64,000 bases of DNA from Rhizobium sp. WSM4643 (GTDB taxonomy: Bacteria > Pseudomonadota > Alphaproteobacteria > Rhizobiales > Rhizobiaceae). A program made the position numbers and the translations under genes. Shown one piece after another: positions 43,644 through 54,093 of the stretch; position 1 is the first letter of the stretch, and each line of letters opens with the position of its first letter. The notes under the pieces are model-generated. The model worked only from the letters and a program-made list of their open reading frames with translations, ran no database searches and had not been told where the DNA came from. Location of the stretch: NCBI RefSeq assembly GCF_025152745.1, contig NZ_CP104040.1:1984001-2048000 (forward strand). The letters run 5' to 3'.

Positions 43644-45236
43644 ATGCGAAACTTCGAAATGCCGGGAAGATCGATAGCTGTCGGCCGCAACGGGATGGCA
43701 GCAACATCGCACCCCATGGCGACTTTGACCGCGATCGAGATCCTCAAAGCTGGCGGCAGGGCGATCGATGCTGCGGTGAGTGCCTGTGCCGTACAATGCG
43801 TGGTCGAGGCTGGATCCACCGGCATAGGCGGCGATTGCTTTGCGCTGCTGACATCAAACGGAAATGACGATGTCGTTGCGTATAATGGCTCGGGACGCAC
43901 GCCGGCGGCGGCGCATTTTGATTGGTTCAGGGAAAACGGCATCACTTCGATCGAGCGATCGTCGCCGCATGCGGTGACCGTTCCCGGCGCGGTGGACGCA
44001 TGGACGCGTCTCGTTGCCGATCATGGAAGGATGTCGCTGACTGAAATCCTTGCTCCCGCAATAGCGCTGGCGCGCGACGGCTATGGGATCACGCCACGCG
44101 TTGCCGCCGATATCTCGAACCAACGTGATTTGTTGCTGCGTGATCCTTCGACACGCCGTATTTTCTTGATCGACGATCAGGCCCCTCCTGTCGGATCGGT
44201 TCAACGTCAGCCGGAACTGGCACAGACACTGGAAGCGATCGCGGTTTCCGGACGTGACGCCTTTTATCGCGGTCCCGTGGCGGACGACATGGTGACACGG
44301 CTGAATTCGCTTAGCGGTCTCCATACGCTTGCAGATTTTGCATCTGCCGCCGGCGAATATGTGAAGCCCGCCAGCGCGACATATCGAGGATGGACGGTGC
44401 ATGAATGCCCGCCAAACGGGCAGGGGATCATTGCTCTGATGATCCTGAAGATCTTGGAGCGTTTCGAACGCAAAGGCGATCCGCTGGGCGTCGACAATCT
44501 GCACGTCGAAATCGAAGCCACTCGGCTGGCTTACGCCGCCCGTGATCGATGGGTCGCCGACGCGGCAGTATCAGATGTTCCGGTCGACTTCCTGTTGTCC
44601 GACGAACTCGCCGACAGTCTTGCCGCCAAGATCGATAAGACCACAGCCGCCAACGCCACGGCGGTTCTCGACGGCGTCGAGCATTCGGACACGGTTTATA
44701 TTTCGGTTGTCGACAAGGACCGAAATGTTGCGAGCTTCATCAACTCGGTCTTCCATCCCTACGGAAGCGGCTTGATGGCGCCAAACTCCGGCGTCCTGTT
44801 CCACAATCGGGGGCAAAGCTTCGCTATGAAGCCGGGCCATCCGAACGCGATAGGGCCGCGCAAGAGGCCCATGCACACGATCATCCCAGGGCTGGTGACA
44901 CGCCATGGCAAAACTGTTTTGTCGTTCGGCGTCATGGGGGGACACTATCAGGCGATGGGCCACGCCCACCTCCTCTCCAAGCTGTTCGACTTCAATTTGG
45001 ACATTCAGAGCGCAATCGATTTACCTCGGCTCTTTCCGCTTCCCGGCACGGCGACGATCGAAGCCGAAGCACGTCTTCGCACCTCGATCGGCGATGATCT
45101 CGAAGCACGCGGCTTCAAGGTTGTCGCTCCGAACTGGGCGATTGGCGGTGCCCAGGCGATCTGGATTGACGATCAACACCACACGCTGTTGGGCGCTTCT
45201 GATCATCGAAAAGATGGTTGCGCACTCGGCTACTGA
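43644..45236 (+). CDS. Gamma-glutamyltransferase-family protein
   Basis: A 530-residue N-terminal-nucleophile hydrolase precursor. The autoprocessing/catalytic region 'VEHSDTVYISVVDKDRN' aligns the Thr with the nucleophile of GGT (the TTHYSVVD motif of the E. coli enzyme), and 'PRKRPMHTIIPGLV' and 'VMGGHYQAMGHAH' match the small-subunit oxyanion region. No signal peptide is visible, unlike classical periplasmic GGT, so it is probably cytoplasmic and processes gamma-glutamyl or related amide conjugates of the pathway intermediate. It starts 17 bases after the aminotransferase stop. Confidence 0.85.
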   Translation: MRNFEMPGRSIAVGRNGMAATSHPMATLTAIEILKAGGRAIDAAVSACAVQCVVEAGSTGIGGDCFALLTSNGNDDVVAYNGSGRTPAAAHFDWFRENGITSIERSSPHAVTVPGAVDAWTRLVADHGRMSLTEILAPAIALARDGYGITPRVAADISNQRDLLLRDPSTRRIFLIDDQAPPVGSVQRQPELAQTLEAIAVSGRDAFYRGPVADDMVTRLNSLSGLHTLADFASAAGEYVKPASATYRGWTVHECPPNGQGIIALMILKILERFERKGDPLGVDNLHVEIEATRLAYAARDRWVADAAVSDVPVDFLLSDELADSLAAKIDKTTAANATAVLDGVEHSDTVYISVVDKDRNVASFINSVFHPYGSGLMAPNSGVLFHNRGQSFAMKPGHPNAIGPRKRPMHTIIPGLVTRHGKTVLSFGVMGGHYQAMGHAHLLSKLFDFNLDIQSAIDLPRLFPLPGTATIEAEARLRTSIGDDLEARGFKVVAPNWAIGGAQAIWIDDQHHTLLGASDHRKDGCALGY

Positions 45237-45241
45237 CGGCA

Positions 45242-46690
45242 ATGGAGAGCGATGTGTCGGGATATCCGGATACCCAACTTTACATCAATGGCCTTTGGAG
45301 GGACGGCTCGAACGCCCGTCTCTCCATCGTCAATCCTACTTCGGGCGAGGTCATCGGTAGCGTTTCGAATGCCAGCAAGAGTGATCTCGATGAAGCGCTT
45401 GCAGCCGCTGCCGCCGGCTTTGAACAATGGCGGCGCGTAAGTGCGTTCGACCGGTCAAAGCTTATGCGCCAAGCCGCCAAGATCTTGCGCGACCGTTCCG
45501 CGGCGATCTCGAGAATAATGACGTTGGAGCAGGGCAAGCCGCTGGCCGAATCCAAAGCGGAAACGGCGGGGGCTGCCGACACCATCGATTGGTTTGCCGA
45601 GGAGGCTCGCCGTGCCTACGGCCGTTTGGTTCCACCCAGGGCGACCAACATCAGGCAAATGGTTATCAAGGAGCCTGTCGGTCCGGTGGCCGCCTTCAGT
45701 CCCTGGAATTTCCCGTTGAATCAAGCCGTACGGAAAGTTTCGGCGGCCCTTGCCGCCGGTTGTTCGATTATTTTGAAGGGGCCGGAGGAGACGCCGGCAA
45801 GCTGCGCCGAGCTTGTTCGCGCCTTTGCTGACGCAGGCCTGCCGGCGGGAGTGCTCAATCTCGTTTTCGGAGTTCCAGCCGATATTTCAAATCACCTCAT
45901 CCCCCACCCTGTTATCCGCAAAATCTCCTTCACCGGATCGACTGTCGTTGGAAAGCAGCTGGCCTCACTGGCCGGCGCCCACATGAAGCGGGTGACGATG
46001 GAACTCGGCGGCCATGCGCCAGCTCTCGTTTTCGAAGATGCCGATATCGATCTTGCGGTCAGACTGTTGGCTGGTGCGAAGTTTCGAAATGCCGGCCAGG
46101 TCTGCGTGGCTCCGACGCGGTTCCTCATCCAGGAACGCGTCTTCGAAAAGTTCCTCGATGGCTTCGTGAGAGCGGCCGAGGCAATCGATGTCGGCGATGG
46201 ATTGCGCGACGGCGTAACCATGGGGCCGCTTGCCAATCCGCGAAGGGTCGAAGCCATGGAGTCGCTGACGGCCGACGCGGTGATGCGTGGCGCAAAGATC
46301 GCAACCGGCGGCAAAAGAATCGGCAATCTCGGCAACTTCTTTCAGCCGACAATTCTGACCGATGTTCCACAAGATGCGCGCGTGCTGAACGAAGAACCCT
46401 TCGGTCCGATGGCGATCGTCAGTGCATTTTCGGATTACGGTTCTGCCATTGCGGAAGCCAACCGCCTGCCATACGGGCTGGCGGCATATGCCTACACGAC
46501 ATCTGCGAAGACGAGCGCCGACCTTGCCCGTGACATCGAAAGTGGCATGCTGTCGATCAATCATCATGGGCTGGCGCTGCCAGAGCTACCCTTCGGCGGC
46601 ATAAAAGATTCTGGCTACGGGTCGGAAGGCGGCAGCGAAGCGATGGAAGCTTATTTCAATGCGAAGCTTGTAACCGAGACGGTTAATTAG
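45242..46690 (+). CDS. NAD(P)-dependent aldehyde dehydrogenase (succinate-semialdehyde dehydrogenase-like)
   Basis: A 482-residue ALDH with 'FSPWNFPLNQAVRK' (substrate/NAD region), 'FTGSTVVGKQ', the general base in 'MELGGHAPALVF' and the catalytic Cys in 'FRNAGQVCVAPTRF'. The GQVCVAPTR wording is that of the GabD/SSADH branch. It would oxidise the semialdehyde from the aminotransferase to succinate. The ATG at 45242 follows the GGT stop by five bases; its ribosome site is weak, so coupled translation is likely. Confidence 0.87.
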   Translation: MESDVSGYPDTQLYINGLWRDGSNARLSIVNPTSGEVIGSVSNASKSDLDEALAAAAAGFEQWRRVSAFDRSKLMRQAAKILRDRSAAISRIMTLEQGKPLAESKAETAGAADTIDWFAEEARRAYGRLVPPRATNIRQMVIKEPVGPVAAFSPWNFPLNQAVRKVSAALAAGCSIILKGPEETPASCAELVRAFADAGLPAGVLNLVFGVPADISNHLIPHPVIRKISFTGSTVVGKQLASLAGAHMKRVTMELGGHAPALVFEDADIDLAVRLLAGAKFRNAGQVCVAPTRFLIQERVFEKFLDGFVRAAEAIDVGDGLRDGVTMGPLANPRRVEAMESLTADAVMRGAKIATGGKRIGNLGNFFQPTILTDVPQDARVLNEEPFGPMAIVSAFSDYGSAIAEANRLPYGLAAYAYTTSAKTSADLARDIESGMLSINHHGLALPELPFGGIKDSGYGSEGGSEAMEAYFNAKLVTETVN

Positions 46691-46872: not shown

Positions 46873-48579
46873 TCACTGCGGGCGGGTGCCGACGAACCTC
46901 GCGACCCGGCAGTGAAGGAGCACCGGCCGGTCCGCGTCGATCATCACCTCGATCCTGGCGTCGAGTTCGCTCGGGCTCTCGCAACGAAGGCCGACGGCGC
47001 CATAGGCTTCCGCGAGCTTGGTGAAATCGGGCAGTGAGGCCGAATAAGAGCGCGCTCGACTGTTGCCATCCGGCATGGGATCCCATTCTTGCGCCATGCC
47101 CGGATGCTCATCGCTCAAGACGAAAATCTTGATCGGCGCTTGATGCTGTATGGCCGTCGACAGCTCTTTCATCGTCGTTTGCACCGACGCGTCGCCGGCA
47201 ATGTCGATGACAAGGCGCCCGGGATGTGCGAGCTGCGCGCCCAGCGCGGCAGGAAGGCCGAAGCCCATCGTCCCCAATCCCCCCGAGGTAATCCAGCGAT
47301 TGGGTTTGTCGAAACCGAAGAACTGCGCCACCCACATCTGCTGACCGATCTCCGTGGCGATGATTGGGTCGTGCGGCTTTGTCAGTGCATGCAGGCGCTC
47401 CAGGGCATGTTGCGGCATGATTGCATGGTCCAGCCGCTTGTAGGGAAACGAATGGTGGGTTCGCCAATGATCGATCTGCAACCACCACGCCCGCAACCGC
47501 TTCTGGTCGGGCATAGTGGAGAGCAACCGCCAAGCATGGATCATATCCGCCAGCACATGCGCGGCGTCGCCCTGAATGCCGATGTCAACGAGAACGCGTT
47601 TGTTGATCGACGAGGCATCGATATCGATCTGGATTTTCTTCGAGCGAGGTGAAAACTCCTGGGCACGCGAGATCGCAAGATCGTCAAACCGCGCGCCGAT
47701 GGCGACCATCAGATCGCAATCGCCAATTGCCATATTCGCTTCGTGCGATCCGTCCTGTCCGGCGACCCGTAGCCAGTTCGGCCCGGTAGCCGGATAGGCC
47801 CCAAGCCCCATGATGGTGGACGTTACCGGAAAGCCGGTGAGGTTGACGAACTCACGCAACAATCTGGACGCCTCCGGTCCGGCGTTGATGATGCCGCCGC
47901 CGGTATAGATGATGGGGCGTCGGGCTTCAGCCATCAATGCGACAGCTGCCCGGATCGCGTTCTGATCGCCATGCATTGCCGGCTGATAGCTCGGCAGCGG
48001 AGCTACCTTGTCAGGTGCGACGTAGGTTCCGCTGGCAAACAGCACGTCCTTCGGCATGTCGACGAGAACAGGGCCGGGCCGACCGGCCGCCGCGATCCGG
48101 AAAGCCAGATGGATCGTTTTGGCGAGATCGTCGACGTGTTTGACCAGGAAATTGTGCTTTGTGCAGGGGCGGGTGATGCCGACGGTGTCGCATTCCTGAA
48201 AAGCATCCGTGCCGATCAGACTTGTCGGTACCTGGCCGGCGAGGCAGACGAGGGGAACGGAGTCCATAAGGGCATTCTGCAGTGCGGTAACCGCATTTGT
48301 AACGCCCGGTCCCGATGTCACCAGCATGACGCCAACTCTACCGGTCGAGCGGGCATAGCCTTCGGCCGCGTGTCCGGCGCCTTGTTCATGGCGTACCAGG
48401 AAATGTTTGATGTCCTCCTGTTGGAAGATTTCGTCATAGATCGGCAGCACCGCTGCGCCGGGATAACCGAAAATGTGTTCGACACCGTTGTCGCGCAGTG
48501 CCTGCAGAACGATCTCGCCGCCGTTCATGCGACGATCAGAGGGGCTGTTGAGGGAAGAGTTGGCTGTCTCGCCGGGCAT
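46873..48579 (-). CDS. Acetolactate synthase large-subunit paralogue (IlvI/IlvB-like ThDP enzyme)
   Basis: A 568-residue ThDP enzyme of the AHAS type: 'HIFGYPGAAVLPIYDEIFQQ' with the catalytic 'RHEQGAGHAAEGYARSTG' Glu, the FAD-domain region and the ThDP motif 'IAGDASVQTTMKEL'. The Mg-binding part of that motif, NN in ordinary AHAS, reads SD here (FVLSDEHPGMAQEW), and the usual MVRQWQ is replaced, so substrate use may differ. No ilvH regulatory subunit gene follows. The ATG at 48579 lies just past an attenuator terminator and is chosen for that reason. Whether it makes acetolactate is open. Confidence 0.8.
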   Translation of the reverse strand: MPGETANSSLNSPSDRRMNGGEIVLQALRDNGVEHIFGYPGAAVLPIYDEIFQQEDIKHFLVRHEQGAGHAAEGYARSTGRVGVMLVTSGPGVTNAVTALQNALMDSVPLVCLAGQVPTSLIGTDAFQECDTVGITRPCTKHNFLVKHVDDLAKTIHLAFRIAAAGRPGPVLVDMPKDVLFASGTYVAPDKVAPLPSYQPAMHGDQNAIRAAVALMAEARRPIIYTGGGIINAGPEASRLLREFVNLTGFPVTSTIMGLGAYPATGPNWLRVAGQDGSHEANMAIGDCDLMVAIGARFDDLAISRAQEFSPRSKKIQIDIDASSINKRVLVDIGIQGDAAHVLADMIHAWRLLSTMPDQKRLRAWWLQIDHWRTHHSFPYKRLDHAIMPQHALERLHALTKPHDPIIATEIGQQMWVAQFFGFDKPNRWITSGGLGTMGFGLPAALGAQLAHPGRLVIDIAGDASVQTTMKELSTAIQHQAPIKIFVLSDEHPGMAQEWDPMPDGNSRARSYSASLPDFTKLAEAYGAVGLRCESPSELDARIEVMIDADRPVLLHCRVARFVGTRPQ

Positions 48580-48623
48580 ATCTGGGTTCCGTCGTGAGTG
48601 AGGTGATAGGTGCGACGGGGCAT

Positions 48624-48646
48624 AAAAAAAGGCCCCGTCAGGGACC
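48624..48646 (-). terminator. Intrinsic terminator of the ilv-type attenuator
   Basis: On the minus strand GGTCCC-TGAC-GGGGCC (one G-U pair) is followed by seven Ts, a textbook rho-independent terminator, located between the leader peptide stop and the start of the acetolactate-synthase-like gene. It would end transcription early when branched-chain amino acids are plentiful. Confidence 0.75.
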
Positions 48647-48654
48647 TGTTTTCG

Positions 48655-48702
48655 GCGCATGGGTGGCTATTGCCGGACGATCAGACCGTCCTGCCCATGC
48701 GC
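48655..48702 (-). promoter_or_regulatory. Attenuator pause/protector stem
   Basis: GCGCATGGG inside the leader codons (48694-48702) pairs perfectly over nine bases with CCCATGCGC (48655-48663). Nested within is a second hairpin, GGACG/CGTCC (48687-48691 with 48675-48679). A ribosome stalled on the upstream Val/Leu/Ile codons would disrupt this structure. I could not identify a convincing antiterminator pairing by eye. Confidence 0.6.
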
Positions 48703-48737
48703 GATATCACCACTACGAGAACCATTGCGATTTTCAT
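48681..48737 (-). CDS. ilv-type leader peptide, 18 aa
   Basis: ATG to TGA encodes MKIAMVLVVVISRMGRTV. Six consecutive residues (VLVVVI) are branched-chain amino acids, the hallmark of ilv attenuation control peptides. It precedes a two-stem structure and a terminator with a T-run, then the acetolactate-synthase-like gene 102 bases downstream. A -10-like TACAAT on the minus strand at 48796-48791 could serve as its promoter. The leader's own ribosome site is weak. Confidence 0.75.
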   Translation of the reverse strand: MKIAMVLVVVISRMGRTV

Positions 48738-49004
48738 GGGCGATAGAGCTAGCTCCAAATCCACACGTCGTCAACGTCGCCTCTGCGTAGATTGTATCTG
48801 TGGTTGAGATTATTTGAGATCGGTGGTTCGGTCAGTGACGACGCAAGGGCAGGGCGATCCGTTCGCAAGCCTCTTGACCAAAGGGCAAGCTCTGCCCGTT
48901 CTATCGCTCGGGAAGTGATTTCGACCACTTCCTCCAATGTGCGCCGGTCAGGGGTTCCGAGCGAGTTGGGCTCCACTCAGCGGATGAGTGGCCCGGCGCG
49001 AACG
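48738..49004. promoter_or_regulatory. Intergenic region between LacI gene and ilv leader
   Basis: About 265 bases without a convincing gene. It must carry the promoter of the leader/acetolactate-synthase unit. TACAAT (minus strand, 48791-48796) is the best -10 candidate; TTGACG (minus, 48769-48774) is a plausible -35 for a promoter closer to the leader. I see no terminator hairpin for the LacI gene. Confidence 0.3.
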
Positions 49005-50093
49005 CTATGGCGACGTATATGCGCCATCGAGGATCTGCCGCGCCTCGGCCCGCGGTGCGGCGACGGAATTACGCTTAACGAGCGAGCATTCGAGCTTCGC
49101 AATGGGATAGCGCTTGCCGGGCGCACTTTCCGGGTTGAGATGTTCGATCGCCCATTGCCCCATGGCAAGATGTGGAAGGACCGAGGTCGTCAGAGGGGGT
49201 ACGAGATGTCGTGCAATTTCTTCGTCGTCATAACCCACCACCGACATGTCCTGGGGAATGCGAAGCCCTGCATCCTTGAGCGCTTCGTAACACCCGATGG
49301 CAGTGCGGTCGTTCTGGCAGAAGATCGCGGTGGGCGGCTCTTTCAGAGCAAGCAGTTTCATCGTGGAGGCATAGCCGGCACCGGCCGACCAGTCGCCTTC
49401 AATGACCAATTCCGGATCGAAAGGTATATCGGCGGTCGCCAGCGCGCGGCGATATCCCGTCAGCCGGTCCTGCGCCGCCTGCATCCAGATTTCGCCGGTG
49501 ATCGTCGCGATACGATGGTGTCCGTGCATGATCAGATGGCGGGTGGAGCTCTGCCCCCCCGCGATCTCGCTCGGCACCACGGCGGGAAAGGCATGGTCCG
49601 CCGTATAACAGTTCAGCAGGACCGTCGGGATATTAAGCTTGCGGACATAGGAAGGAAGCTCCACCTGACGGGTATAGATTGTCATATATATGAGCGCCGA
49701 TATGCCTCCGTTCGTCAACGCCTCGATTGCCTTCGGCTCCATGACGGGGTCACTGAGCGTTTGGGTTACCAGAAGGACATTGCCGGCGTTCCAGGAGGCT
49801 TGCCGCGCGCCTTCGATCGCAACGATCGCTTCCGGGCTGGTGGCGAGTTGATCCACGGCGAATCCGATGACGTTGTCCAGTCCCGAATAAGAGGCCTTCG
49901 TCGTATAGGTCTTCTCCATATAGCCGAGCGCGCGCGCCGCCTCCAATACGCGATCACGCGTCTGCTGTGAGATGCGGGTGCCGGGCGTGTCGTTGAGGAC
50001 GAAGGAGACGGCCGCCTGCGAGCAGCCAGCCGCCGCGGCGATGTCCATCATCGTCACGCGCACAGGCCTATTTTCGGTCTTGGGTTTTTGCAT
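49005..50093 (-). CDS. LacI-family regulator of the ribose-type ABC operon
   Basis: A 362-residue repressor with HTH 'TMMDIAAAAGCSQAAVSFVLND', hinge 'VLEAARALGYMEKTY', and a sugar-binding-protein-like effector domain (PTAIFCQNDRTAIGCYEAL; MSVVGYDDEEIARHLVPPLT). It is divergent from the ABC operon across a 350-base region that holds a cre-like operator, so it very probably regulates that operon. Confidence 0.88.
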   Translation of the reverse strand: MQKPKTENRPVRVTMMDIAAAAGCSQAAVSFVLNDTPGTRISQQTRDRVLEAARALGYMEKTYTTKASYSGLDNVIGFAVDQLATSPEAIVAIEGARQASWNAGNVLLVTQTLSDPVMEPKAIEALTNGGISALIYMTIYTRQVELPSYVRKLNIPTVLLNCYTADHAFPAVVPSEIAGGQSSTRHLIMHGHHRIATITGEIWMQAAQDRLTGYRRALATADIPFDPELVIEGDWSAGAGYASTMKLLALKEPPTAIFCQNDRTAIGCYEALKDAGLRIPQDMSVVGYDDEEIARHLVPPLTTSVLPHLAMGQWAIEHLNPESAPGKRYPIAKLECSLVKRNSVAAPRAEARQILDGAYTSP

Positions 50094-50149
50094 TCGTGGA
50101 AACTGTCTCTGCTTGGGATAACCGTTCAGGGTTGTTGATCGTCGTTTTT

Positions 50150-50165
50150 GCTAATTAATATTAGC
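50150..50165. promoter_or_regulatory. GCTAAT-TAAT-ATTAGC inverted repeat
   Basis: A perfect 6-bp inverted repeat with a 4-base centre, 57 bases upstream of the LacI start, in A/T-rich DNA. It may be a promoter-overlapping site for the regulator gene. Function inferred from position only. Confidence 0.35.
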
Positions 50166-50172
50166 ATCTATC

Positions 50173-50186
50173 TGAAAGCGCTGGCA
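50173..50186. promoter_or_regulatory. LacI-family (cre-like) operator
   Basis: TGAAAGCGCTGGCA fits the general LacI/GalR-family site TGNAANCGNTNNCA with a central CG, in the divergent region between the LacI gene and the ribose-type transporter. It is the best candidate binding site for that regulator and could repress both directions. Confidence 0.6.
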
Positions 50187-50441
50187 ATTGCATGAATTGT
50201 TGCAACACTATCGATTGTTGGCAATGCCAGTACAAAATTACCATCCCAGCCATTGCCCGATGAAATGTTTTGATCTGCATTGATAATACTATTTACTAAT
50301 TAAATTTCTTGTATACCGTCAGGGAGCGATCGGAACCTATGCCACTCGTCGCTTTGCGACGGCCCTGGGAGGGGGCGCGCATCCGGCCGGCCGTAAATCG
50401 GAAACGGGCCCGTGCAACTGCGGCCCCTCGGGAGGTGTATT

Positions 50442-51404
50442 ATGAAACAGCTGAAACGCAATGCAGCCTTGTTTTTCGCCGGGTTGATGCTGAGCGCGGC
50501 GCCGATTGCCGTATCGCATGCTGCCGACAAGCCGACACTCGCATTTGTCGTCAACGGTGCATCCGACTTCTGGAAAGCCGCAGAGGCGGGCGTGAAGAAG
50601 GCGCAGGGCGAGATGCCCGACTACCAGATGGAGCTGAAGTACCCTGAGCAGGCATCTGTCGCCGTTCAGCAACGGCTTATGGAAGACTTGGTCAGTGCCG
50701 GCGTCAAGGGGATCATGGTTTCCGCAGTCGATCCCAAGACCCAGACGGACGGCTTGAACAAGATCGGATCGCAGACTGCTCTCTTCACCACAGATAGCGA
50801 CGCGCCGCAGACCAACCGCGTCGCCTATATCGGCTCATCGAATATCGACGCCGGCATGCAGGCCGCCGAAATCGCCAAGAAAGCGATGCCGGACGGCGGC
50901 AAATGCATCGGCTTCGTTGGCCTGCTCGGCGCCGACAATGCCAAGGAACGCATCCAGGGCATGAAGGACGGCCTGAAGGGCACGAAGATCGAGCTGACAG
51001 ATGTACGCGGCGACGATATCGACCAGACCCGCGCAAAGAAGAACGTCGAGGACGCGCTGGTGGCCAGCCCCGACGTCACCTGCATGGTCGGTTTCTACTC
51101 CTACAATACGCCGCGCATCTATGAGGCGTTGCGCGACGCCGGCAAACTTGGCCAGATCACCGTCGTCGGCTTTGATGACGATCCGATCACGCTCGGCGGC
51201 GTCAAGGAAGGCACGGTCGCAGCGACCGTCGTGCAACAGCCGTTCGAATGGGCCTATCAGGGCATGAAGCTGATGGCGGCCTACCTCAAGGGCGACAAGT
51301 CAGGCGTTCCTAGCAACGGCTTGATCATCATACCGACGGTAATCATCGGCAAGGATGACGTTGACAAATATGCCGCCAGCCTGAAGGCCATGGCTGGAAA
51401 ATAA
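50442..51404 (+). CDS. Periplasmic sugar-binding protein (RbsB/family 2 type)
   Basis: A 320-residue binding protein: signal peptide (cleavage near SHA-AD), 'LAFVVNGASDFWKAAEAGVKKAQ', 'GIMVSAVDPKTQTDGLNKIG', 'GFVGLLGADNAKERIQGMKDGLKG' and 'ITVVGFDDDPITLGGVKEGT'. This is the ribose/autoinducer-2/allose binding family. GGGAGG lies seven bases before the ATG at 50442. Ligand unknown; no sugar kinase or isomerase gene follows to help. Confidence 0.88.
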   Translation: MKQLKRNAALFFAGLMLSAAPIAVSHAADKPTLAFVVNGASDFWKAAEAGVKKAQGEMPDYQMELKYPEQASVAVQQRLMEDLVSAGVKGIMVSAVDPKTQTDGLNKIGSQTALFTTDSDAPQTNRVAYIGSSNIDAGMQAAEIAKKAMPDGGKCIGFVGLLGADNAKERIQGMKDGLKGTKIELTDVRGDDIDQTRAKKNVEDALVASPDVTCMVGFYSYNTPRIYEALRDAGKLGQITVVGFDDDPITLGGVKEGTVAATVVQQPFEWAYQGMKLMAAYLKGDKSGVPSNGLIIIPTVIIGKDDVDKYAASLKAMAGK

Positions 51405-51483
51405 CTCTCCGTCGCGGCGGCGGCACTCGCCGCTGCCGCGAGGGACGTCCCATGCCGACAGCATTAGCAGCTATGGACAGGCG

Positions 51484-53025
51484 ATGAACCACAGCTCCGA
51501 CTTCCCATCACCGGACGCGCTTGCAACGCCGTTCCTCTCGCTTTCCGGCGTTGGCAAGACCTATCCGGGCGTCGTTGCGCTTGAGGGCCTGTCGATCGAC
51601 ATCATACCGGGCGAGGTCATCGGCCTCGTCGGCGAGAACGGAGCTGGAAAATCGACGTTGATGAAGATTCTCGGCGGCGTGATAGCACCCGACCGAGGCG
51701 CGATTCTGCTCGACGGAGCAGAGCTTCGTTTCCTCACTGTGGAATCGAGCATCGCATCCGGCATCGCCTTCGTTCACCAAGAACTCAATCTCTTTGAGAA
51801 TCTCGACGTTGCTGCCAATATCTTCCTGGGCCGCGAGCCGCTGAAGGCCGGACCTTTCAAGCTCGTCGATCGCAATCGGCTGCGAGACATGGTGAAGCCG
51901 CTCTTGAAGCGGGTAGGGGCTCATTTTTCCGCCGACACACCCGTGGCATCGCTTTCCCTTGCCGAGCAGCAGATGGTGGAAATCGCCAAGGCGCTGTCCA
52001 TCAACGCCAGGCTCGTCATCTTCGATGAACCCACGTCCAGCCTGCCGCTGGCCGAAACCGAGCGTCTCCTGAGCATTATCAAATCACTGAAAGCCGATGG
52101 CATCAGTGTGGTTTTCATTTCGCATCGCCTCCACGAGGTTGAGCGCGTCGCAGACCGGGTCGTAGTCCTGCGCGACGGCACGCTTGTGGGCACGCTTGCC
52201 AAGAAAGACATCGGTCACGACCAGATGGTCAAGCTGATGATCGGCCGGGTGCTTGCGGCCCGGACCGCAAAACCGCAGCGCTCGCCCGGCTCGGTTGCGC
52301 TGAAGGCTAGCGGCGTGCGCACCGAGGCCTATCCCGGCCGTCCCGTTGATCTGGAAATCCGGTATGGAGAAATCATGGGACTTGCAGGGCTCGTGGGGTC
52401 GGGCCGCACCGAGCTTGCAAGGGTACTCTTCGGCATTGACCGTAGCTACGGCGGAGCCATTCTGCAGGACGGGCGGCAAATTGCGATCAGGTCTGCCCGG
52501 GACGCCGTTGCTCGTGGCATTTTCCTGGTACCGGAGGATCGCAAGCGCAACGGCATTCTTCTTGATTTCCCGATCGCCCAGAACATAACCCTTGCCGATC
52601 TCCCCAAGCTCTCCAGCCGCTTCATGCTTTCTGCCGAGCGGGAGAGGGCGGCGGCCGAAAAACAACGCGTTCGCCTCGGTATCAAGGCGCCTTCCGTTTC
52701 GTCGCGAACCGGCACTCTGTCCGGCGGCAACCAGCAGAAGGTGGTGCTTGCCAAATGGTTGTCGATGAGCCCGAAGGTGATGATCTTCGACGAGCCGACA
52801 CGCGGCATCGATATCGGCGCGAAGAATGAGATCTACGGCCTGATGCGAGCGCTTGCCGATGCCGGCGTCGCAGTCCTGATGATCTCCAGCGACATGGAAG
52901 AGGTGATCGGCGTTTCCGACCGCATCGCCGTCATGCACGAGGGCCAGATCGCCGGCATTTTGGAAGAGGACGAAATCAGCCAGGAAAGCGTCCTTTTGCT
53001 TGCCGTCGGCAAAAGGGTAAAATAG
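51484..53025 (+). CDS. Sugar ABC transporter ATPase, double cassette (RbsA type)
   Basis: A 513-residue fused ATPase with two nucleotide-binding domains, as in RbsA/XylG. The first has Walker A GENGAGKST and signature LSLAEQQM; the second has a degenerate Walker A (GLVGSGRTEL) and signature LSGGNQQK. Uneven cassettes are normal for CUT2 transporters. It follows the binding-protein gene by 79 bases. Confidence 0.9.
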   Translation: MNHSSDFPSPDALATPFLSLSGVGKTYPGVVALEGLSIDIIPGEVIGLVGENGAGKSTLMKILGGVIAPDRGAILLDGAELRFLTVESSIASGIAFVHQELNLFENLDVAANIFLGREPLKAGPFKLVDRNRLRDMVKPLLKRVGAHFSADTPVASLSLAEQQMVEIAKALSINARLVIFDEPTSSLPLAETERLLSIIKSLKADGISVVFISHRLHEVERVADRVVVLRDGTLVGTLAKKDIGHDQMVKLMIGRVLAARTAKPQRSPGSVALKASGVRTEAYPGRPVDLEIRYGEIMGLAGLVGSGRTELARVLFGIDRSYGGAILQDGRQIAIRSARDAVARGIFLVPEDRKRNGILLDFPIAQNITLADLPKLSSRFMLSAERERAAAEKQRVRLGIKAPSVSSRTGTLSGGNQQKVVLAKWLSMSPKVMIFDEPTRGIDIGAKNEIYGLMRALADAGVAVLMISSDMEEVIGVSDRIAVMHEGQIAGILEEDEISQESVLLLAVGKRVK

Positions 53026-53067
53026 CGGCTGCGGCCAATAGAAATAAGTATCGGGGATGGATTTCGA

Positions 53068-54093
53068 ATGATCAAAAAAGATCTAGGACTGCTGCTTTTG
53101 ATCGTCGTCGTCGGCATCGTCGTCGCCATCATCAACCCGCGTTTCCTGCTGCCGATCAACCTGGCCAACACTGCCAACCTGATCGGCCTGTTCGGCATCC
53201 TGTCGATCGGCCAAGCCTTTGTCATCATCACCGGCGGTATCGAGCTTTCCGTGGGTTCGCTCGTCGCACTTCTCGGCGTGCTGTTCGTCGATTTCATCGC
53301 GGTCCAGGATATGTCATGGATGCTGGCGCTGCCGCTCATTCTCGCGCTCGGCGCCGTCATCGGTGCCGTCCACGGCTGGCTGATCACCCGGCTCAACCTG
53401 CAACCCTTCGTCGTCACCCTCTGCGGCCTCCTGATCTATCGTGGGGCAGCGCGCTTCTATACGGCCGACGGAACGGCGGGCTTTGCTTTCGGCCAAAATT
53501 TCCCTGACCTCGAATTCCTGACCGCGGGACGGTTTTACGGCGTTCCCAACACCTTCACCGCACTCGTCATCATTGCCGTGGTCATGTGGGTCATGCTGCA
53601 TCGCTCTGTCTTCGGGCGTTATCTTTACGCGATCGGGAAGAACGAGGAGGCGGCCCGCTATTCCGGTATCCGTACCGGCCGCATGGTGATGTCGGCCTAT
53701 GTCATCTGCGGGCTGCTGACGGCGCTATCGGCAATTTATTTCGCCATGTACACGCGCTCGATCTCGCCGGCGAGCCATGGCCAGTTCTACGAACTCTACG
53801 CGATTGCCGCTGCCGTGCTCGGCGGCTTTTCGCTCCGCGGCGGCGAGGGATCGATCGTCGGCGTCGTGCTGGGAACGGTCCTGCTCCAGGAGTTGCAGAA
53901 TCTCGTGAATCTCCTTGGTATACCCTCGTCGCTGAATTTCGCTGTCATGGGTGGCGTGATCCTCATCGGCGTCCTGATCGACCAACAATGGCACGCGATC
54001 CGCGCAAAGCGCCGCCTCGTCTTCGCCGCCCGACAGACCGAATCCCGTCTTTCGAAGGAAGGCAGTTTGCCAGCGGTTGCCAATCAGGACTAG
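53068..54093 (+). CDS. Sugar ABC transporter permease (RbsC type)
   Basis: A 341-residue membrane protein of the CUT2 permease family: 'SIGQAFVIITGGIELSVGSLVALLGV' and 'LYAIGKNEEAARYSGIRTGR' are diagnostic. About eight to ten membrane segments. It ends the operon; downstream lies A/T-rich and mobile DNA, so catabolic genes that might have named the sugar could have been lost or displaced. Confidence 0.9.
   Translation: MIKKDLGLLLLIVVVGIVVAIINPRFLLPINLANTANLIGLFGILSIGQAFVIITGGIELSVGSLVALLGVLFVDFIAVQDMSWMLALPLILALGAVIGAVHGWLITRLNLQPFVVTLCGLLIYRGAARFYTADGTAGFAFGQNFPDLEFLTAGRFYGVPNTFTALVIIAVVMWVMLHRSVFGRYLYAIGKNEEAARYSGIRTGRMVMSAYVICGLLTALSAIYFAMYTRSISPASHGQFYELYAIAAAVLGGFSLRGGEGSIVGVVLGTVLLQELQNLVNLLGIPSSLNFAVMGGVILIGVLIDQQWHAIRAKRRLVFAARQTESRLSKEGSLPAVANQD

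Follow-up and report, generated by a model that had tools for sequence, protein, structure and literature searches.

A second ilvIH-type leader in Rhizobium sp. WSM4643 precedes a diverged ilvI paralogue and probably acts as a transcription attenuator

Short leaders in front of ilv genes are called attenuators in earlier work, which cites Vitreschak 2004 and Tarleton 1994. The closest described systems include the ilvB leader peptide, presented in part of PMC1273637 together with the view of such leaders as attenuators, the attenuator-type leader listed for S. meliloti as 'ilvIH cis regulatory' in an excerpt of PMC2573895, and the Caulobacter ilvBN and ilvIH leaders, treated as attenuators in passages of PMC4117421. 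Rfam, in contrast, files the family Atu_C8 (RF02502) as an sRNA, which counts against an attenuator reading. In the window, by which we mean the whole 64,000-nt stretch of Rhizobium sp. WSM4643 DNA that was analysed, the minus strand carries a full-length match to this family (48614..48735, model positions 1–122 of 122; 111.1 bits against a gathering score of 50; E 1.3e-23 with the whole 64-kb window searched), in agreement with a first-pass annotation that had described an ilv-type leader there. The kind of leader is thus familiar; what is new is its redeployment onto an ilvI paralogue that has lost enzyme-defining residues and onto an MFS transporter.

The distribution of Atu_C8 suggests that Rfam's sRNA entry corresponds to the ilvI leader in Rhizobiaceae. 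Scores over the cut-off were obtained in 60/60 genomes of the genus, 112/121 of the family sample and 19/121 of the order sample (the sample scans used stricter filters). Among the 119 matches in the family sample, all 29 further loci that were fetched precede ilvI (27 recognized by motif and 2 by reading). At the canonical loci of the genus, the exact ilvI motif lies behind the leader in 28 of the 30 fetched, and in the other two an ilvI match follows about 70 nt further on.

To describe the leader we used an alignment of 89 distinct leaders (52 canonical, 28 preceding the MFS transporter and 9 preceding an ilvI paralogue), in which the window's leader is identical to L100. The leader ORF (48681..48737, minus strand, like all features of the locus given below) comprises 18 codons, MKIAMVLVVVISRMGRTV, with stop UGA, and has a counterpart in 89/89 aligned leaders; its control codons V6 L7 V8 V9 V10 I11 (48705..48722) are the V-L-V-V-V-I run that had been reported. 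Likewise, the perfect 9-bp stem is present as described, its 5' arm A, GCGCAUGGG (48694..48702), falling within leader codons 12–15 and its 3' arm C, CCCAUGCGC, at 48655..48663, with 99.9% of cells paired across the 89 leaders for either arm. The hairpin B nested within this stem (48675..48691) also exists and contains the leader stop codon, but it measures 7 bp with one G-U (GGACGGU 48691–48685 : AUCGUCC 48681–48675) instead of the 5 bp first given, and four of its pairs show compensatory changes. Just ahead of the structural gene, as had been noted, stands an intrinsic terminator (48624..48647) made of a 7-bp stem (AGGUCCC 48647–48641 : GGGGCCU 48636–48630; 97.6% of cells paired in the 89 leaders) and a run of seven T (48630–48624), at a distance of about 45 nt from the ilvI-like gene. 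The leader region folds with z = -2.66. The segments GACGGGGC and GCCCCGUC flank the T run (48614–48639) and could form an 8-bp hairpin in the read-through RNA; this possible hairpin is present at this locus across the window's clade of paralogues and in the sister clade.

A promoter accompanies the leader. The -35 hexamer TTGACG (48769..48774) is conserved in 88/89 leaders with at least 5 of 6 matches, mostly 36–37 nt 5' of the leader ATG when the best match between -45 and -28 is taken. A 17-nt spacer separates it from the -10 hexamer TAGCTC (48746..48751), picked among three spacings with TA preferred. As 8 nt separate the -10 hexamer from the leader ATG, transcription would start at or next to this ATG, implying a leaderless leader ORF.

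The genome carries two Atu_C8 copies, that of the window and one that stops 50 nt short of the canonical ilvI frame, with ilvH behind that frame. Comparison of the two leaders, a check proposed in the first-pass annotation, yielded an alignment over the whole length that includes the -35 box. The genome's only ilvH match lies at the canonical locus; behind the window's gene ilvH is indeed missing, the next listed gene (45218–46690, plus strand) being convergent. Given the alignment through the -35 box and the single ilvH at the canonical locus, a joint duplication of promoter, leader and gene is most likely. Furthermore, a -10 of the TAGCT type occurs in 22/28 MFS leaders and 8/9 ilvI-paralogue leaders, as against TATCA or TAACA in at least 40 of the 52 canonical leaders, a pattern that suggests a single ancestral event in which the promoter was duplicated along with the leader.

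Conservation within the alignment falls on the control codons and on the paired positions. The position of V9-V10 encodes Val-Val in 89/89 leaders, with GTG/GTA swaps only; the codon before it specifies I, V or L in 82/89, through different codons, and the second codon before it L or I in 85/89. Outside the alignment, one of six further leaders from the third clade of paralogues (L224) has Leu-Val in place of Val-Val. This pattern fits selection on the encoded Val/Leu/Ile residues. Structure cells are paired at 98.9%, compared with 34–51% in slid controls, a figure favoured by the fact that the scored structure was drawn from the 89 leaders themselves. Moreover, the leader accompanies all six orthologues of the window's gene in the 60-genome sample, own included, so the absence from close relatives that had been named as evidence against the locus was not what we found.

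A search for an antiterminator gave a different picture. No helix of at least 5 bp that competes with the terminator 5' arm was present in at least 80% of rows in a conserved-helix scan of the 89 leaders. Folding with a placed ribosome was run on L100 (from genome G026), the E. coli leaders thrL, trpL, ilvL and ivbL serving as controls. Ribosome placement gave no contrast for this window-type leader, nor for the canonical one in the same genome, so that the folding check suggested earlier, terminator versus antiterminator, did not reveal the ribosome-dependent behaviour that thrL and trpL show. The probability that the terminator 5' arm pairs upstream before its 3' arm is made was 0.02–0.22 with the ribosome stalled at codons 6–11, 0.40 at codon 3 and 0.17 at the stop; in the controls it fell from about 0.6 to 0.0 for thrL and trpL, partially for ilvL and not at all for ivbL. 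The full-RNA terminator probability was flat (0.81–0.86) and, because this equilibrium value is nearly flat even in the E. coli controls, it was not used as evidence. A GGGA:UCCC extension, which would touch the terminator arm where present, is fully paired in at least 41 of 52 canonical, 11/28 MFS and 0/9 ilvI-paralogue leaders (fixed alignment columns). With no classical antiterminator found and this extension lacking, the word 'complete', applied earlier to the attenuator, is too strong.

Taken together, the constraint on Val/Leu/Ile codons, the compensatory changes in hairpin B, the form shared with the canonical leader and the terminator lying between ORF and gene argue that the duplicated ilvIH-type promoter, leader ORF and terminator probably control the ilvI paralogue by ribosome-mediated transcription attenuation. 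With Val-, Leu- and Ile-tRNA well charged, the ribosome would reach the stop codon, the terminator would form and an RNA of about 115 nt would be released; when charging falls, the ribosome would stall in V-L-V-V-V-I and transcription would read into the ilvI paralogue. How stalling would defeat the terminator we can only infer, as no classical antiterminator was found.

Second copies of the leader are confined to two kinds of cargo. The 60 genus genomes contain 106 Atu_C8 matches and, counting one per genome as canonical, 46 second copies, 18 of which precede an ilvI paralogue and 28 one MFS transporter, with none elsewhere. The ilvI paralogue occurs in 19/60 genomes, the leader-linked MFS in 28/60 and both in one (G046), so that the two cargoes are almost mutually exclusive (Fisher p 1.2e-5, genome kinship ignored; the test omits a weaker paralogue type of 55–57% identity, found in 5/60 genomes with no Atu_C8 match beside it). 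The idea that both cargoes occupy the same locus was rejected, since the flanks of 12 of the 18 paralogue loci with a leader (the window's among them) and those of 10 of the 28 MFS loci have no gene in common (>45% identity, 90 aa). In the family sample, genome G121, from a different genus, carries Atu_C8 a second time, ahead of a 390-aa ilvI-like frame. The catalogued RNA family, the canonical leader copy, the joint duplication of promoter and leader and the MFS-linked copies had all been overlooked in the first-pass annotation.

All 28 genes of the leader-linked MFS family in the 60 genus genomes (E 1e-60; L071–L098) have the leader directly in front, and none of them is found in the window's own genome. 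One of the proteins scored 181.9 bits against TIGR00710 (Bcr/CflA efflux), under the cut-off of 200.9; the leader thus gives a regulatory clue for a transporter otherwise known just by its likeness to drug-efflux pumps. The ten MFS loci compared form seven groups when sorted by the flanking genes they share, and since the groups of L253 and L256 share weaker matches at other distances, we count at least six neighbourhoods rather than seven. More distant MFS relatives, of at most 48% identity, occur in 57 genomes of the 121-genome family sample, each of which has at most one Atu_C8 copy under strict filters; no leader was present at the three loci scanned among the ten returned (40–48% identity).

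In a plasmid collection, 24 different records matched the MFS and 13 of them were fetched. Atu_C8 scored over the cut-off before three of these relatives, in Rhizobium gallicum, R. etli and Phyllobacterium. Five others are preceded by a 16-codon leader and a terminator, namely those of Burkholderia cenocepacia, B. arboris, Phaeobacter, Roseobacter and Leisingera (L264, L266, L269, L270, L271), and four have no leader (Pseudomonas hygromyciniae, Burkholderia multivorans, Robbsia and Pseudorhodobacter). In the remaining relative, on plasmid pAt2 of Agrobacterium, a TPP riboswitch takes the upstream position (L263:602–718, 74.6 bits). The 16-codon leaders take the form MKT(T/A)CFIVVVHRRRVR or M...FVVVVS(R/K)R.MVR, with four Val/Ile in a row (IVVV or VVVV); the Burkholderia pair score under the Atu_C8 cut-off (27.2 and 28.3 bits) and the three Roseobacteraceae leaders have no Rfam match. 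In all five, the A:C stem overlaps the terminator 5' arm, so that stem and terminator exclude each other. The predicted terminator probability was 0.03 and 0.09 in two of them and 0.80–0.89 in the other three without a ribosome, 0.92–0.99 with the ribosome at the stop and 0.95–0.99 with it on the last Val codons, and the terminator 5' arm was predicted to pair upstream with a probability of 0.37–0.59 at the stop. A terminator expected to form even with the ribosome on the last Val codons, and a 5' arm that would pair upstream at the stop, do not fit a simple stalling model. We also considered whether the MFS of Roseobacteraceae had recently acquired its leader as a copy of the local ilvI leader; going by a single case, this is unsupported, the one Rhodobacteraceae ilvI leader compared (from a MAG) having other stem letters. 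In E. coli K-12 (L143), emrD, a gene of the Bcr/CflA type, is situated some 1 kb away from ivbL-ilvBN, beyond tisB, possibly by coincidence.

The gene behind the window's leader (46873..48579, stop included, 568 aa, with the start at 48579 placed by alignment) encodes a protein with three TPP-enzyme Pfam domains that is 67% identical to the canonical IlvI of the same genome, so it is a paralogue and not the canonical ilvI, as had been recognized. Its frame remains open upstream to an ATG at 48660, inside the leader (595 aa). The region upstream of the leader, 49005–54093, contains a gene for a LacI-type regulator and, in divergent orientation, a set of sugar-type ABC transporter genes, named by look; similar proteins occur next to the orthologues of G026 and G053. 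Three clades were recovered among the ilvI paralogues (in a tree with 3/9 members of the third), the window's clade being present in 6/60 genomes, own included. In the third clade, L226 (from G023) has an in-frame TAA near its end and an intact leader. The divergence noted at the metal site is real, NNQYMGM having become SDEHPGM, and the set of conserved catalytic and cofactor residues of acetohydroxyacid synthase (AHAS; among them Glu80, Arg317, His435, Asp487 and Asn514, listed in part of PMC5727371) is incompletely retained. In the window's clade, Leu replaces Arg317 in 6/6 members, His435 is deleted in 6/6 and Asp replaces Asn514 in 5/6, while Glu80 and Asp487 remain in 6/6, and Met519 and the tryptophan are retained too; equivalence to the published numbering was set by motifs and spacing, exactly near the sites and with a drift of up to 8 residues further on. 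According to the same part of PMC5727371, mutating the arginine abolishes acceptance of the second substrate, or activity, in other enzymes.

These residues bear directly on whether the paralogue could be a working second AHAS isozyme that shares ilvIH control. Its score of 651.1 against TIGR00118 (cut-off 538.35) and the positions kept would favour an isozyme, as would the sister clade, all four members of which keep every residue checked. Nevertheless, the losses just described, together with a C-terminus about 33 residues shorter than that of canonical IlvI (shortened in 6/6 orthologues) and a score of 900.9 under the cut-off of 974 for the best-scoring model, NF006581, make such an isozyme improbable. 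Having lost residues conserved in AHAS, the protein is probably no longer an ordinary one; its sequence makes acetolactate production at a normal rate improbable, and selection has presumably kept it for another ThDP reaction or for a regulatory role. It might also be asked whether leader and gene simply persist by descent from the duplication, with no present regulatory use. The third clade does look relaxed (arginine lost in 9/9, variable C-termini, dN/dS of 0.24–0.32 in 3/9, one in-frame stop), and no leader was found beside the sister-clade copy in G033. The window's clade behaves otherwise: its leader is unchanged over 124/124 nt in three of five orthologues (122/124 and, ungapped, 99/124 in the remaining two), the codon third positions of those three being only 84–86% identical to the window's gene (pS 0.18–0.21). 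Moreover, dN/dS is 0.15–0.20 between the window's gene and its five orthologues and 0.15–0.26 within the clade, well below 1, compared with 0.09–0.19 in the sister clade and 0.03–0.11 for canonical ilvI (7 sequences). The window's paralogue is under purifying selection, and persistence as a mere relic appears very unlikely.

A further alternative places the function in the leader itself, the released RNA or peptide acting in trans, like Sinorhizobium rnTrpL/peTrpL, with the gene behind it secondary. Consistent with this are the Rfam listing as an sRNA, the constancy of the leader in front of varying cargo (ilvI paralogue or MFS), and the stem arms GCGCAUGGG/CCCAUGCGC, which are almost letter-invariant in the 89 Rhizobiaceae leaders, beyond what pairing needs. 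The promoter, too, puts the start near the ATG, as in the leaderless rnTrpL described in parts of PMC7298713 and PMC10117765. However, stand-alone second copies were not seen, since 46/46 lie ahead of one cargo or the other; in several other alphaproteobacteria both arms of the stem have different letters (eight loci, compared by eye); and the ilvI paralogue, the cargo examined in this respect, is under purifying selection. We consider action in trans unlikely. The best reading remains a duplicated attenuator, presumed responsive to branched-chain amino acids, that has been redeployed to cargo outside normal biosynthesis; we infer both the amino-acid response of the leader and the function of its cargo.

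What the two cargoes might have in common can be framed more speculatively. The fungal compound harzianic acid is reported to inhibit AHAS, with a resistant copy of the enzyme encoded in its gene cluster. The second leader could, by analogy, serve as a stress sensor in which a loss of charged branched-chain tRNA, caused by a natural inhibitor of AHAS, of its ThDP cofactor or of a branched-chain tRNA synthetase, would switch on a protective cargo, a changed AHAS copy or an exporter. The near-exclusion of the two cargoes, the six or more MFS neighbourhoods, the Val/Ile-run leaders on relatives in Roseobacteraceae and Burkholderia and the TPP riboswitch in Agrobacterium point in this direction; they are associations, and we regard both the sensor and the protective role of its cargo as quite doubtful. 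Our literature search, which left most subscription journals outside, returned no publication on an ilvI paralogue or MFS under an Atu_C8 leader. The locus matters if an ilv attenuator has been duplicated together with its promoter onto genes outside normal branched-chain synthesis.

Compared with RF02502 and the alphaproteobacterial ilvIH (ilvBN) leaders, the window's leader agrees with the canonical copy of its genome in leader ORF, stems, terminator and promoter spacing. It differs from that canonical leader in preceding an ilvI paralogue without ilvH, in its -10 of the TAGCT type, in an Ile codon where the canonical leader has Gly, and in lacking the GGGA:UCCC extension. Set against the large subunit of acetohydroxyacid synthase (IlvI/IlvB/IlvG), the paralogue retains 67% identity and the three TPP-enzyme domains, whereas it lacks the arginine, His435 and, in 5/6 members, Asn514, ends in a shorter C-terminus and has no adjoining small-subunit gene. 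With S. meliloti rnTrpL/peTrpL the locus shares a short leader ORF with control codons and a start near the ATG, and would likewise release a terminated RNA, here of about 115 nt; the window's control codons are, however, those of branched-chain amino acids, and whereas action in trans is known for the trp leader, the reading proposed here is one in cis.
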